Below are positions 14,993 through 57,087 of a DNA stretch of 64,000 bases, piece after piece; the first letter of the stretch is position 1; each line of letters starts with the position of its first letter. Both the position numbers and the translations under genes were made by a program. The notes under the pieces were generated by a model that was not told the origin of the DNA, did not search any database, and was given only the letters and a program-made list of their open reading frames with translations. Source of the stretch: Scytonema tolypothrichoides VB-61278 (GTDB lineage: Bacteria; Cyanobacteriota; Cyanobacteriia; Cyanobacteriales; Nostocaceae); the NCBI RefSeq assembly GCF_000828085.3, contig NZ_JXCA02000016.1, positions 205,659-269,658 of the forward strand. The letters are read 5' to 3'.

Positions 14993-15343
14993 TGTTCTCC
15001 CCCTGACTAACTCACAAATGAACGCAGAGGAACAGCTGACACAAGGCAGGCAGGATGAGAATTGACAAACTACTAAACCAATATCTCAATCGTTGAACTC
15101 GGGCTTAAATTATCTCGCGTTACATAAATCACTAAACCTTGTCATTCAATACCAGAGTTAGGCAACGCCTGTTATAGTTTTATGAAGTATGTCTATCCTT
15201 TTATTTAAAGAACACCAAATTATTAAATTTTCCTGCTGCAAAGTGTCAACTGTTGCTTTGCCGAATTTAACTTACCACTCAGACGTTAATTCTTAGCAAA
15301 GAAACAGTTAAAACAGGGAACAGGGAACAGGGAACAGTGAACA
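14993..15343. other. Region upstream of phoD, ending in a heptamer repeat
   Basis: No gene was seen. It should contain the phoD promoter (minus strand). The right end, 15311-15350, is a short tandem repeat of AACAGGG/AACAGTG units that runs into the next reading frame. Confidence 0.5.
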
Positions 15344-15595
15344 GTGAACAGCGATAATCAAAGCGAATTCTTACAACTACGTCTAGCTGTAGAAGGAAAA
15401 GTTATTGGTTTTTACCGTTTGGATAATGGACAGAAATTGTTGGTTCCTGATGAGTTAGCCCAGGCGCTGAAAGAGGAAACGCGAAAACGTCTGGAAGCAG
15501 AGAAACAAGCAGAACAAGAACACCAACGCGCTGTCAAACTCGAATCCTTGTTAGCTGGTTATAAAGAGCAATTTGGAGAATTACCAGAAGAATAA
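15344..15595 (+). pseudogene. C-terminal fragment resembling Uma2-type endonuclease tails
   Basis: This 83-residue frame begins at a GTG inside a heptamer repeat, so the start is probably artificial. The sequence (LRLAVEGKVIGFYRLDNGQK, then an acidic/basic coiled-coil ending in a Glu-rich tail) resembles the C-terminal tail often found after the nuclease domain of cyanobacterial Uma2-family proteins. The nuclease core itself is absent. It is probably a remnant left after repeat-mediated rearrangement, although a small expressed coiled-coil protein cannot be excluded. Confidence 0.5.
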
Positions 15596-24209: not shown

Positions 24210-24265
24210 GTATAACAAGATATAGGACTCATATTTGATTTTTACTCAGCTAGGTACATTTGATG

Positions 24266-24350
24266 TTCCCTATTCCCTATTCCCTATTCCCTATTCCCTA
24301 TTTCCTATTCCCTATTCCCTGTTCCCTATTCCCTGTTCCCTGTTCCCTAC
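24266..24350. repeat. Heptamer tandem repeat (TTCCCTA/TTCCCTG)~12
   Basis: About twelve tandem heptamers, mostly TTCCCTA with TTCCCTG towards the right, form the longest such array within the secretion cluster. It lies between the two VirB8-like paralogues and 40 bases before the second start codon. Confidence 0.92.
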
Positions 24351-48559: not shown

Positions 48560-49435
<876 letters not shown>

Positions 49436-53345: not shown

Positions 53346-53524
53346 AAATACTTTATGCAAGGGATAGAGAGCGTTGATGACTTCTTTATACTCTCCAAAT
53401 AGTTGATTTGTACTAATTAATAATTGTGTAGATACAATGAAGTACGTACAAATAGAGAGAGAAAATTCAGATAATAAAATAAGCAAGCTGCTTGCTGTAT
53501 TTGAGCGAAAATCATCAAAAAGCT

Positions 53525-53728
53525 ATGCCAGATGCTTCAGAACTTCTCAAGAGCACAAGTCATTTTCTTGATGCTTCTCTCTACGAAGTATACAAAGAGA
53601 TTGAGACATCAGAAAAATCTGGTGGTGCAACAGTCGAATCAAATCACCAAGCAATTCAGGATGGGTTAGTTCAATGGCGTAGCTTGCTTCCGTGTGATGA
53701 AAGAGGAAGTCAACTGATAATTAAGTAG
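53525..53728 (+). CDS. Small acidic protein of unknown function upstream of the exonuclease fusion
   Basis: This protein of 67 residues starts from ATG 53525 (the frame is open from TTG 53492). It includes SELLKSTSHFLDASLYEVYK and ETSEKSGGATVESNHQAIQD. No known family was recognised. Its stop is 9 bases before the start of the next gene, so the two are probably co-transcribed and possibly related in function. Confidence 0.4.
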   Translation: MPDASELLKSTSHFLDASLYEVYKEIETSEKSGGATVESNHQAIQDGLVQWRSLLPCDERGSQLIIK

Positions 53729-53737
53729 TTCAAATCA

Positions 53738-55207
53738 ATGTTTTACGTAACTCAAGCTTCGGAAATCCAAGCAGTTATAACCCGACTAGCTTCGCGTCAA
53801 ATTCTCTGGTTAGATACAGAAGTTGCTGACTATGATACACCCTTTCCAAAACTATCTCTGATTCAGGTTTCGGTAGAACCATTAGATTTAGCTGGCGATA
53901 ATGTTTATATATTAGATGTCTTTCAAAAGCCTGATGTTGTAAAATACTTTATCAATCAAATCATGGCAAATGCCAAGATTGAAAAGGTATTTCACAACTC
54001 CAGCTATGACCTCCAGTATCTAGGTAAGATTCAGGCGCAGAATATTACCTGTACCTTAAAAATAGCAAGAAAGATATCACGCGATCGCCTAGGAACATCA
54101 AATTTAAAACTTAAAACCTTAGCCAAAGAACTTTGCAATTTTACTGATGTAGATGAAGAGGAAGGAACAAGTGACTGGGGAAGACGACCTCTGAGCCAAA
54201 AACAGCTAAACTATGCCAAAATGGACACTGTTTATCTAGCTCAAGTACATCTGCATTTAAATAGTTGGACACAATCAAACGGACATTCTACTTCAAAGTC
54301 TAAAACGCCACATGGATTAGATAATAGCCACAATCTTTATTCTGAACAGGCGCAAGACTGGACAATTGAAGCAATGAAGTTTTTATCTTGTGTGGCGCGT
54401 TGTAAAGAAAGATTTGGAATGCTTCACATTATAGATGTGTTGCGGGGAGGGAAAACCCAAAAAATTACCCAACACGAACACGACAAACTTTCTACTTATG
54501 GTATTGGTAAAGATAAAACTCTTGATGAGTGGCGAATGCTGGGGCGTTCTCTATTGGAGCAAGGATTGTTAGAACAAAACGGCGATGATTACCCAGTTTT
54601 GAAACTGAATGCCTTTAGTTGGGAAGTCATGCAGAAAAAGCGATCTGTGTCAATAACTGTTCGTGTCGTTCAAAAGATAACTTTGGAAGATGATAATGAA
54701 AAAGCAGCAGAAGTGGAAGTGCTGATGCAGAGGTTGCGATCGCTCCGCAAACAACTTGCTGAGGAACAATCTCTTCCACCTCACTTTATCTTTCAGAATT
54801 CTACCCTAGAATTAATGGCGCAGGTGCAACCGCAAACTAAAGAGGAATTTAGTAAACTATCTGGCGTAGGTAGTTACAAACTTGCTCAATATGGTGACAA
54901 GTTCCTAGGTGAAATTTGCGCTCACCGCACTGAACAAGGTTTACCAGAGCGAGCCAATTTAGATAGACAAATACAAAAAGTTGAAATTCCTAAGAACAGC
55001 GAAGATTTTGACAGAGTTGATAAATTAATTGAGCAATTGAGGCAATCTTTAGAGAGTCTGAGTTCTGACAAAATACCTGAGGATGTACAAAAATTTCTCA
55101 AAGCTGCTGCAAAGAGTGGGGCAACTATTGACCTCTTAACTCTGGAGGTGAAAGAATGGCTCATTCAGCATAGACTCGCTGAATCTTTACGAATTCGCTT
55201 GACTTAA
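53738..55207 (+). CDS. DEDDy 3'-5' exonuclease fused to RecQ-type RQC and HRDC domains
   Basis: This 489-aa protein has three recognisable parts. Residues 1-175 are an RNase D-like exonuclease with all DEDDy motifs: WLDTEVAD (D26, E28), FHNSSYDLQYL (D91), and YAKMDTVYLA (Y159, D163). Residues 207-300 are a RecQ C-terminal winged-helix (RQC) domain very close to bacterial RecQ: FLSCVARCKERFGMLHIIDV, then LRGGKTQKI, HDKLSTYGIGKDKTLDEW and LLEQGLL. Residues 330-398 are an HRDC domain (LRKQLAEEQSLPPHFIFQNS). A final helical wing (430-489) resembles the C-terminal module of some RecQ proteins. The RecA-like helicase motor and Zn-binding Cys are absent. It probably processes structured DNA or RNA ends. 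Confidence 0.9.
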   Translation: MFYVTQASEIQAVITRLASRQILWLDTEVADYDTPFPKLSLIQVSVEPLDLAGDNVYILDVFQKPDVVKYFINQIMANAKIEKVFHNSSYDLQYLGKIQAQNITCTLKIARKISRDRLGTSNLKLKTLAKELCNFTDVDEEEGTSDWGRRPLSQKQLNYAKMDTVYLAQVHLHLNSWTQSNGHSTSKSKTPHGLDNSHNLYSEQAQDWTIEAMKFLSCVARCKERFGMLHIIDVLRGGKTQKITQHEHDKLSTYGIGKDKTLDEWRMLGRSLLEQGLLEQNGDDYPVLKLNAFSWEVMQKKRSVSITVRVVQKITLEDDNEKAAEVEVLMQRLRSLRKQLAEEQSLPPHFIFQNSTLELMAQVQPQTKEEFSKLSGVGSYKLAQYGDKFLGEICAHRTEQGLPERANLDRQIQKVEIPKNSEDFDRVDKLIEQLRQSLESLSSDKIPEDVQKFLKAAAKSGATIDLLTLEVKEWLIQHRLAESLRIRLT

Positions 55208-55733
55208 TAATATAGGAATGCGGTTTGATTTATCAACTTACTCGTAAAGACAAGTCCTGTTCCCTATTCCCTGTTCCCTATTCCCTGTTCCCTGCGATGC
55301 ACTGAGCGTGGTCGTTGTGTTCCCTGTTCCCTGCGATGCACTGAGCGTGGTCGTTGTGTTCCCTGTTCCCTGTATAAGTATATTTGCTGGGGCAACTTCA
55401 GCGCAAAAGACGCTATAACTTGATTTCTAACAAAAATCAGGTTATTACTAGTGACCTTTGATGCATCAAGTCATGTTTTTAAGCTTGGTTTGTCGGATTG
55501 TCCCGATCAACTCAGTATTGAGAATAAGGAACCGCAGTGTTCCGAACAAAGTGCTGTGTCTAAACAATTCCAAGTTTTCTGTTCAACCTCAAACTGGGTG
55601 AGAAACAGATGAACTTTCATCTGTACCTAGAAATTCAGTTTTTGAGGACTCTGTTGGAAACGGGTGTTATGGAAACTCCGGAACTTTGTTTTATGTCTGT
55701 ATGGTCAATGAAAAAGGTCATTATTGCTAAATT
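55208..55733. repeat. Heptamer array with a duplicated 40-base unit
   Basis: From about 55257 to 55378, TTCCCTG/TTCCCTA heptamers are interleaved with two identical copies of GCGATGCACTGAGCGTGGTCG plus flanks. This makes a compound direct repeat with a period of about 43 bases. The remaining 350 bases before the histidine-kinase gene contain no recognised gene. Confidence 0.8.
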
Positions 55734-56663
55734 ATGAATGTTGGAAACTGGGTCTATCTAGGAGTTGGACTAGCAATAGGGATTGGTGTTCGTGGGTTAT
55801 TGGCACGACCAGAGGTGACTTCTAGCTCATCAATAGTGTTATCGCAAGATAAACAACAGGCTACGCCAATACTTCTGCAACAGATGAAGCAAACGCAGCT
55901 AGCGTACCATATGGCACGGGAAATCAGCCAGTTTAAGGCGGGGTTTTTAGCGCGAACGACTCATGTGTTGCGATCGCCCCTAAATGGTCTGATTGGCTTG
56001 CATCAGCTCATCTTATCCAACTTATGTGAAAATCCAGAGGAAGAACGAGAATTTATCGCTCAAGCCCACGAGAGAGCGCTAAAGTTGCTTAAGCTGATTG
56101 ATGAAATTCTTAGCGTTGCTAGAGTCGAACATGGTACGAACAAATTACACATTCAGCCTTTAAACTTATCCGAATTGTTGCAAGAAGTTCATGATTTGAC
56201 TTATATGCTGGCGGAAAATCGCAATTTTCCCTTTCAAGTTCTACCGCCAGATCCAGAGACGTATATACTGGCAGATCCCTACTGGCTGCGACAAGTCTTA
56301 ATCACTTTGGTGGAGAATTGCATTGCGAGAATGGAGGAAGGCAGCATCTGTATTTCTACTCATGTTGCACACACAAGTGGTTGCATTGATATTTGGTTGG
56401 ATGTACCAACTCATGCAACTCCCCTTAGTGAACCGATAGATTTGATGATGTCGAAAAACAACTCACTAGCTGAGGACAAAAACGATATTCTCTTGCCAGG
56501 AATGAAGCTTCTACTCAATCAAACTCTTTTGGAAGTTATGGCGGGAAAATTACAAATCGTTCCCTTTCCCGCCCCTCAGGAACAAGCCTCGGATATGACG
56601 AGGCTACAAGTCTCTATCCCCCTAGTGATTCCTGAAGTTGAACCTCTACAGGAAGAGAATTAA
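55734..56663 (+). CDS. Degenerate sensor histidine kinase-like protein
   Basis: This 309-aa protein has an N-terminal membrane segment (VYLGVGLAIGIGVRGLLA), then a HisKA-type dimerisation helix pair with the H-box FLARTTHVLRSPLNGLIG (H77). The residue after His is Val rather than the usual acidic residue. The N-box LVENCIARMEE is recognisable, but no DxGxG or GxGxG ATP-lid motif follows; instead the chain reads IDIWLDVPTHATPLSEP. It has no sensor domain beyond the helix and no neighbouring response regulator. It may be a pseudokinase or scaffold. Its end overlaps the convergent GNAT gene by 50 bases. Confidence 0.75.
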   Translation: MNVGNWVYLGVGLAIGIGVRGLLARPEVTSSSSIVLSQDKQQATPILLQQMKQTQLAYHMAREISQFKAGFLARTTHVLRSPLNGLIGLHQLILSNLCENPEEEREFIAQAHERALKLLKLIDEILSVARVEHGTNKLHIQPLNLSELLQEVHDLTYMLAENRNFPFQVLPPDPETYILADPYWLRQVLITLVENCIARMEEGSICISTHVAHTSGCIDIWLDVPTHATPLSEPIDLMMSKNNSLAEDKNDILLPGMKLLLNQTLLEVMAGKLQIVPFPAPQEQASDMTRLQVSIPLVIPEVEPLQEEN

Positions 56664-57087
56664 ATTTAGGTTGGTTATACAGCACCATTGTAGTGGTAGA
56701 ATTGTGTTGGAAACCAATCCTTTCGTAGAATCGCTGCTTGTGAGTTGTCATCAAATAGACACGCTCAACACGATTCATGCGCGGGTGGCTCAAAACAGTT
56801 TCCACCAACTTACTTCCTAGTCCAACACCACGGTACTCTGGATGAATGGCAACATCCGAAATGGTAGCGCGATAGACACAGTCAGAAGTTGCTCTGGCAA
56901 AGCCTATTAATCGTTCTCCATCCCAAACGGTAATCACAGGGTCGCTGTTTGCAATAGCTATGCCTAAATCTTCAATGGTGCGACCTTTTGCCCAGAAAGC
57001 AGAAACGTTTAAGAACTGTTGGAGTTGATAAAGGTCGATTTTAGACTTGCGATCGCTAAATCGAATCTGATTGTGACTAGAGTTCAT
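56614..57087 (-). CDS. GNAT-family N-acetyltransferase, second copy
   Basis: This 157-aa acetyltransferase resembles the protein at 48884-49435. It has [40 protein letters not shown], and the acetyl-CoA loop IHPEYRGVGLGSKLVETVL. LMTTHKQRFYERIGFQ follows. The last 16 codons lie on the opposite strand of the histidine-kinase-like gene's end. The substrate is unknown. Confidence 0.85.
   Translation of the reverse strand: MNSSHNQIRFSDRKSKIDLYQLQQFLNVSAFWAKGRTIEDLGIAIANSDPVITVWDGERLIGFARATSDCVYRATISDVAIHPEYRGVGLGSKLVETVLSHPRMNRVERVYLMTTHKQRFYERIGFQHNSTTTMVLYNQPKFNSLPVEVQLQESLGG

Follow-up and report, generated by a model that had tools for sequence, protein, structure and literature searches.

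How did a DEDDy-type 3′-5′ exonuclease come to carry the RQC and HRDC domains of a RecQ helicase without the helicase itself? The question is raised by a gene at positions 53738 to 55207 (forward strand) of a 64,000 nucleotide stretch of the Scytonema tolypothrichoides VB-61278 genome, hereafter called the window. Proteins of the WRN type have the order exonuclease-helicase-RQC-HRDC, and an earlier note on this DNA had compared the gene to these. The comparison was misleading: nothing was deleted. Instead, an exonuclease-DpdI gene from a dpd defence locus received the RQC-HRDC part of a RecQ, which makes the clean absence of the helicase the mark of an insertion. From its sequence, the gene is almost certainly a chimera of three parts, an exonuclease-DpdI gene with its middle replaced by the RQC-HRDC of a Rhizonema/Scytonema-type RecQ.

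The gene was delimited by its open frame and domain matches and encodes 489 amino acids plus stop. In Pfam, DNA_pol_A_exo1 matched residues 3-175 (E = 2.6e-29), RQC residues 204-312 (E = 6.1e-35; 54347 to 54673, forward strand) and HRDC residues 328-393 (E = 1.8e-20; 54719 to 54916, forward strand), all above the gathering score. The RQC and HRDC domains claimed earlier at residues 207-300 and 330-398 thus survived the profile search. The five catalytic residues named for the exonuclease (D26, E28, D91, Y159 and D163) were invariant in 25 of 25 aligned exonuclease rows; this alignment takes in three of the four chimeras described below, and the fourth, in genome G092, has all five residues too. 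Exonuclease and linker span residues 1-199 (53738 to 54334, forward strand) and were assigned to a Dpd-associated exonuclease-DpdI gene by Pfam, the exonuclease tree and DNA homology to the relative L028 through position 54334. The RQC domain was assigned to a RecQ helicase by Pfam, the RecQ-tail tree and the junction alignment, and the HRDC domain to the same source by Pfam, a count of conserved columns and alignment to structure 1wud. What had been described as a helical C-terminal wing (about residues 406-489) is the C-terminal end of DpdI at residues 408-489 (54959 to 55204, forward strand). The DpdI profile NF041066 matched residues 411-483 with its positions 164-236 of 239 (E = 7e-7; 29.5 bits against a cut-off of 150), the last 82 residues were 87% (86.6%) identical to residues 372-453 of the L028 protein, and the DNA was 89% identical over 54958-55212.

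Pfam detected no helicase domain, and hence no RecA-like helicase core, in the protein, and none was present in the adjoining frames, which encode Sua5 upstream and a HisKA protein downstream; on this point the earlier note was right. Nor did Pfam match a zinc-binding module before the RQC domain. In NCBIfam, the recQ profile matched residues 202-393 below its cut-off and only with its C-terminal end (395-588 of 591). Among the named exonuclease families rnd scored best (residues 4-184; 90.4 bits against a cut-off of 298.95), and assignment to RQC-minor-1 (NF041107) failed with 18.5 bits against a cut-off of 115. The wider neighbourhood is cyanobacterial in character and encodes Tic22, a methyltransferase that is presumably PrmC-like, a GNAT protein and a SecD/SecF-family protein. 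Two acetyltransferase-like frames that look alike by eye (48884-49435 and 56614-57087, the second being the GNAT) flank this neighbourhood. Directly 3′ of the gene, repeated units of the type TTCCCTGTTCCCTG and a duplicated stretch occupy 55250-55370, and similar copies lie at about 24264-24348 and 15312-15351. Scans for promoters (11 against 7.0 expected, sd 2.6) and terminators (2 against 1.9) were not clearly above chance.

The likeness to known proteins is in each case partial. The RQC-HRDC part is common to the chimera and the RecQ of Nostocales (frames of 700-799 amino acids), but the chimera is without the RecA-like motor, the zinc-binding module and the C-terminal extension after HRDC, and the residue that is probably equivalent to Tyr555 is a histidine. 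As in WRN, an exonuclease stands N-terminal to RQC and HRDC in one chain, whereas the helicase is absent; the protein is thus not of WRN type, and the likeness would reflect convergent assembly from unrelated parts. RNase D also combines a DEDDy exonuclease with HRDC further on; in the chimera, however, an RQC domain lies between, the HRDC is of RecQ type and single instead of double, and a DpdI tail follows. Also related is a host protein of 865 amino acids (L086:4469-7066, reverse strand; G000 C3, about 488 kb) whose exonuclease is 62% identical over residues 1-185 and is fused to a PD-(D/E)XK nuclease and an FtsK translocase where the chimera has RQC-HRDC. Its gene adjoins genes for a 712-aa AAA/NACHT-type protein and a 283-aa protein without Pfam match, and a gene that looks ParA-like by eye. 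Across cyanobacteria, related exonucleases recur in frames of about 850-925 amino acids, and the locus is perhaps a HerA/FtsK-type capture system.

The closest relatives are the exonuclease-DpdI proteins of two dpd islands (L028:6001-7362 and L136:13227-14621), whose exonucleases are 76-79% identical to that of the chimera over 185 amino acids and whose C-terminal 82 amino acids are 80-87% identical. A dpdH end lies upstream of chimera and relatives alike. They differ in that the relatives have the N-terminal helical coil of DpdI where the chimera has RQC-HRDC, and in that no dpd operon surrounds the chimera. The L028 protein (453 amino acids) consists of the exonuclease and a complete DpdI (NF041066 positions 2-238 of 239 at residues 220-449; 57.7 bits, below the cut-off of 150). 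Its exonuclease is 72% identical to that of the window over residues 1-217, of which about 1-199 show homology at the DNA level. The L028 gene (genome G037) sits in a dpd operon with DpdF, DpdG, DpdH, DpdJ and DpdK, each above the NCBIfam cut-off; the arrangement in genome G066 is alike, with DpdE, F, G, H and DpdJ above cut-off, and in both the uninterrupted gene stands in the order DpdH, exonuclease-DpdI, DpdJ. The dpd region of G037 includes a second DpdJ-like open frame of 1665 amino acids (G037:C65:30680-34936), located downstream of the other at a distance of about 7 kb. In an exonuclease tree of 34 rows, the chimeras fell within the exonuclease-DpdI clade (100/98) as sister to L028 (98/84). 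Twenty-seven of these rows were labelled exoFtsK from search hits, with domains checked for the host copy only; most are open frames of about 850-925 amino acids, and at least L193 (430), L178 (197) and L177 (701) are shorter.

The exonuclease-DpdI fusion was present in two genomes, G037 and G066. It is rare, since the L028 protein as query (E 1e-60) gave no full-length match in 386 genomes of the phylum, with at most four candidates scored per genome. In other genomes of the family, DpdI mostly stands alone, with a length of about 235 amino acids; in the two loci read out, it directly follows a frame that was recognised by eye as the end of DpdH. DpdI matches were found in 17 of 99 family genomes at 21-60 bits, and no cyanobacterial DpdI seen passed the cut-off of 150. 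The predicted DpdI structure is all helical with a mean pLDDT of 77.7, and a fold search with it returned nothing from the PDB up to a threshold of E 0.001. In genome G055 a 277-aa open frame (L213; G055:C57:5523-6341) is 63% identical to residues 180-452 of exonuclease-DpdI and is perhaps such a protein minus the exonuclease.

At the DNA level, 515 bp of L028 (6598-7112) were replaced in frame by 623 bp of RecQ sequence (54335-54957) in the window. The ends of this graft are the ends of the DNA matches and are precise to a few codons. The graft starts just past the RecQ cysteine cluster and ends just past HRDC, and the part that it replaced is the N-terminal two thirds of DpdI, the predicted helical coil; the swap thus took place almost exactly at domain borders. 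The donor was traced with a tree of RQC-HRDC sequences, for which 141 fetched loci were reduced to 110 sequences by removing matches below 185 amino acids and identical sequences; 106 of these lie in open frames of RecQ size (700-799 amino acids) and the other four are the chimeras. With the root drawn at the midpoint, the four chimeras formed one clade (100/99) on a long stem (0.29), inside a group (99/88) with the RecQs of G044, Rhizonema, Scytonema, G007 and G037; G037 is the genome that contains L028 and its dpd operon. The chimera RQC-HRDC was up to 84% identical to the RecQ of Rhizonema. Over chimera residues 200-405 it was 74% identical to the intact host RecQ (717 amino acids), which is encoded on the contig of the chimera at a distance of about 56 kb. 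The genus's own RecQ was considered as donor and rejected, as a constrained union with its four RecQs gave a p-AU of 1.7e-6. The PADLOC model PDLC02861, labelled DpdF, also matched the RQC-HRDC part (5.5e-50; profile 411-609 of 611) and was not counted as evidence for Dpd because the profile part covered is its RecQ-type end.

Upstream of the gene, window positions 53361-53737 are homologous at the DNA level to the 3′ end of dpdH, and identity to L028 is 80% across 53361-54334. The degenerate dpdH end itself (53361 to 53700, forward strand) is a pseudogene fragment, delimited by tblastn and DNA homology to L028 and interrupted by stops and frame breaks; DpdH residues 977-1042 matched 53492-53689 at 66.7% (tblastn). 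This fragment was the only trace of a dpd operon found around the chimera, with DpdH and DpdJ as the proteins searched for in the genus: no DpdJ above cut-off was present in the four genus genomes tested (G000, G011, G061 and G092), and no DpdH above cut-off in any of the seven. The chimera is thus, in all likelihood and as judged from sequence comparison, a derivative of exonuclease-DpdI from a lost Dpd (7-deazaguanine) anti-phage island. The most parsimonious course of events would be a single swap in a related lineage and subsequent transfer into Brasilonema.

In a scan of genome contigs from 84,980 species, 101 relatives came up and 80 of them were retained; the nearest named records were from Brasilonema. 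Among these 80, the whole protein was found only in L001 (B. bromeliae, 94%) and L002 (Brasilonema sp. CT11, 89%); L028 matched at both ends and not in the middle, and the remaining 77 matched only within residues 189-424, the RQC-HRDC region. Among the matches listed, the complete chimera was present in 3 of 99 family genomes and, with at most four candidates scored per genome, in one of the 386 phylum genomes, which is that of the window itself. Within the genus it was complete in four of seven genomes and missing from three. These sets overlap, G061 being L002, G546 being L001 and G037 being L028. Tracing the phylogenetic spread, as the earlier note had proposed, thus placed the architecture in four genomes of one genus, with none seen outside the genus in the genomes searched. 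Plasmid and phage records that covered at least 80% of the query numbered 0 of 93 and 0 of 15 matching records, respectively, and three pattern matches in viral contigs contained no relative. Misassembly or chance origin was ruled out because the same three-part open frame recurs in the four genomes, which also bears out the claim that the gene is intact. Both donor families are known; their combination did not turn up in the literature searched, nor beyond the genus in the genomes searched.

The chimera occupies two sites. The window and L001 share the HisKA gene that it precedes, and its upstream neighbour in the window is sua5. In G061 and G092 it is likewise intact and lies at another site, where 205 bp from the end of a truncated sua5 are kept upstream (sua5 3′ fragments at L138:8245-8481 in G061 and L137:11304-11543 in G092). 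Genome G548 is without the chimera, but two short remnants of the chimera's 3′ end separate sua5 from the HisKA gene there. Because of the sua5 remnant at the other site and the scar in G548, the position next to sua5 was probably occupied first, and the gene has probably been lost from G548. The scar (L212:4532-4638) could come from the chimera or from exonuclease-DpdI, and unrelated bases lie between its two pieces.

All four chimeras are open, and any differences in coding length between them are multiples of three. Whole-gene dN/dS was 0.26-0.42 (NG86, six non-independent pairs). Seven Fisher tests on the NG86 counts, uncorrected, gave p = 4.6e-7 (window-G061) and 2.3e-11 (L001-G061) for the whole gene, 9e-4 for the exonuclease (window-G061), 2.3e-4 (L001-G061) and a non-significant 0.07 (window-G061) for RQC, 0.04 for HRDC (L001-G061) and 8e-5 for the tail (window-G092). 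In the exonuclease segment, dN/dS was 0.06-0.32 in five of six pairs and 1.07 on about seven changes in the sixth (G061-G092). When the window was compared with G061 and G092, dN/dS was 0.42-0.46 for RQC and 0.43-0.55 for the HRDC segment, against 0.10 for the RQC-HRDC of RecQ in the same genomes; the graft is thus four to five times less constrained and is held more loosely than its RecQ counterpart. RQC dN/dS was 0.22-0.24 for L001 against G061 and G092, with no RecQ of L001 to set beside it. Ninety-one of the 109 columns conserved in at least 95% of the 106 RecQ tails were unchanged in all four chimeras. The dpdH remnant differed by 8.5% with 23 gap columns between window and G061. Part of the apparent constraint may be recency, since the remnant diverges about as little as the gene, and the case for selection is moderate, as this divergence falls below the synonymous divergence of 0.147. 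We consider it likely that the protein is made and under selection.

Structure prediction, also proposed in the earlier note, gave a divided result: AlphaFold modelled the exonuclease with confidence (blocks of pLDDT 80-98) but not RQC-HRDC (30-73), with an alignment that contained only close RecQs. Because the model is poor elsewhere, the fold search speaks only for the exonuclease. It returned Rrp6, Nibbler and RNase D as top PDB matches, and also NrnC, diDNase and the WRN exonuclease; these model-based matches do not decide between DNA and RNA as substrate. In RecQ, the RQC domain is a winged helix binding duplex and junctions. Residue 349 in the HRDC domain is histidine in all four chimeras, whereas tyrosine has a frequency of 1.0 at this position in the 106 RecQs, and the E. 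coli HRDC structure 1wud likewise has a tyrosine in the aligned place. Judged by the offset of residue numbers where the RecQ profile match ends, the replaced residue is probably E. coli Tyr555. The Y555A change is reported to abolish ssDNA binding by HRDC and the winged helix to mediate protein-DNA interactions and substrate recognition (PMC4464074).

On balance we favour, with some reservation, a chimera derived from a Dpd island that would act as a motor-less, DNA-anchored 3′-5′ exonuclease, and the protein is probably functional as predicted from its sequence. It would be made as a stand-alone enzyme removing nucleotides from 3′ ends, with the RQC winged helix holding it on duplex or branched DNA and HRDC holding DNA more weakly and contributing less than in RecQ. 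By analogy with RecQ, we infer that RQC-HRDC may guide the nuclease to structured DNA, in part weakened by loss of the probable ssDNA-binding tyrosine. Acting on repair intermediates or on invading DNA, such an enzyme might shorten 3′ ends with no need for ATP-driven unwinding and, as there is no motor, could trim only exposed or fraying ends. DNA is favoured over RNA because the closest kin of the exonuclease sit in DNA-directed systems, although the chances that DNA is the main substrate are put at about even. Only tentatively do we extend this to a domesticated, structure-guided DNA exonuclease that survived the loss of its defence island and now works alone in repair or against phages, a motor-less counterpart of WRN reached by convergence.

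The substrate bears on a different reading, an RNase D-type RNA exonuclease in which RQC-HRDC replaced the two HRDC domains as a grip on RNA. The rnd family as best named match (90 bits, below cut-off) and the top PDB folds agree with it, and RNase D relatives act on RNA, the E. coli enzyme degrading RNA and having almost no activity on DNA (PMC6330322). Yet the nearest homologs are fused to DpdI in a DNA-restriction operon or, in the host copy, to PD-(D/E)XK and FtsK, and the host has a separate RNase D-like protein (316 amino acids; 44% identity over chimera residues 2-225); we regard an RNA enzyme as rather unlikely. Slightly less probable still is a dying relic, a functionless open frame left by dpd decay. 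That no DpdJ or DpdH above cut-off remains in the four and seven genus genomes, that three of the seven are without the gene and G548 retains only a 3′-end scar beside sua5, and that constraint is weaker than in RecQ would all fit a relic, but the frame is open in four of four genomes with dN/dS about 0.3, length differences in multiples of three and catalytic residues kept, and the genes at the other site, in G061 and G092, are also intact.

The remaining two readings take the RecQ part as the clue to function or origin. With 74% identity to the host's own RQC-HRDC, the protein might be a decoy that competes with RecQ for junctions or partners, the exonuclease being incidental; this is improbable, given the kept active site and an exonuclease segment constrained in five of six pairs. 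The WRN-type exonuclease-RecQ protein that lost its motor has the domain order, equal to WRN apart from the motor, in its favour. It is nevertheless largely refuted by the RecQ-tail tree, the AU test and the exonuclease tree, and we give it the least credence: exonuclease and C-terminal end belong to exonuclease-DpdI and RQC-HRDC to the RecQ of another lineage, the host retains its intact RecQ, and no exonuclease-helicase-RQC-HRDC protein was among the matches listed for the 99 family and 386 phylum genomes.

In the Dpd-derived chimera, a defence gene is seen to have swapped domains; the families of both donors are identified, and the breakpoints are fixed within a few codons. The recQ profile matched the RecQ-like helicase DpdF of G066 only at 17-348 of 591, and on the tentative reading of a domesticated exonuclease, DpdF, which seemingly lacks RQC-HRDC, may have been provided with it in trans by the graft in the ancestral dpd setting. 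The exonuclease fused to DpdI in two cyanobacterial dpd islands points to one effector of Dpd restriction, which is testable, and the fusion may thus reveal a nuclease that serves the Dpd restriction module. An active chimera would be a natural test of whether RQC-HRDC alone aims a nuclease.
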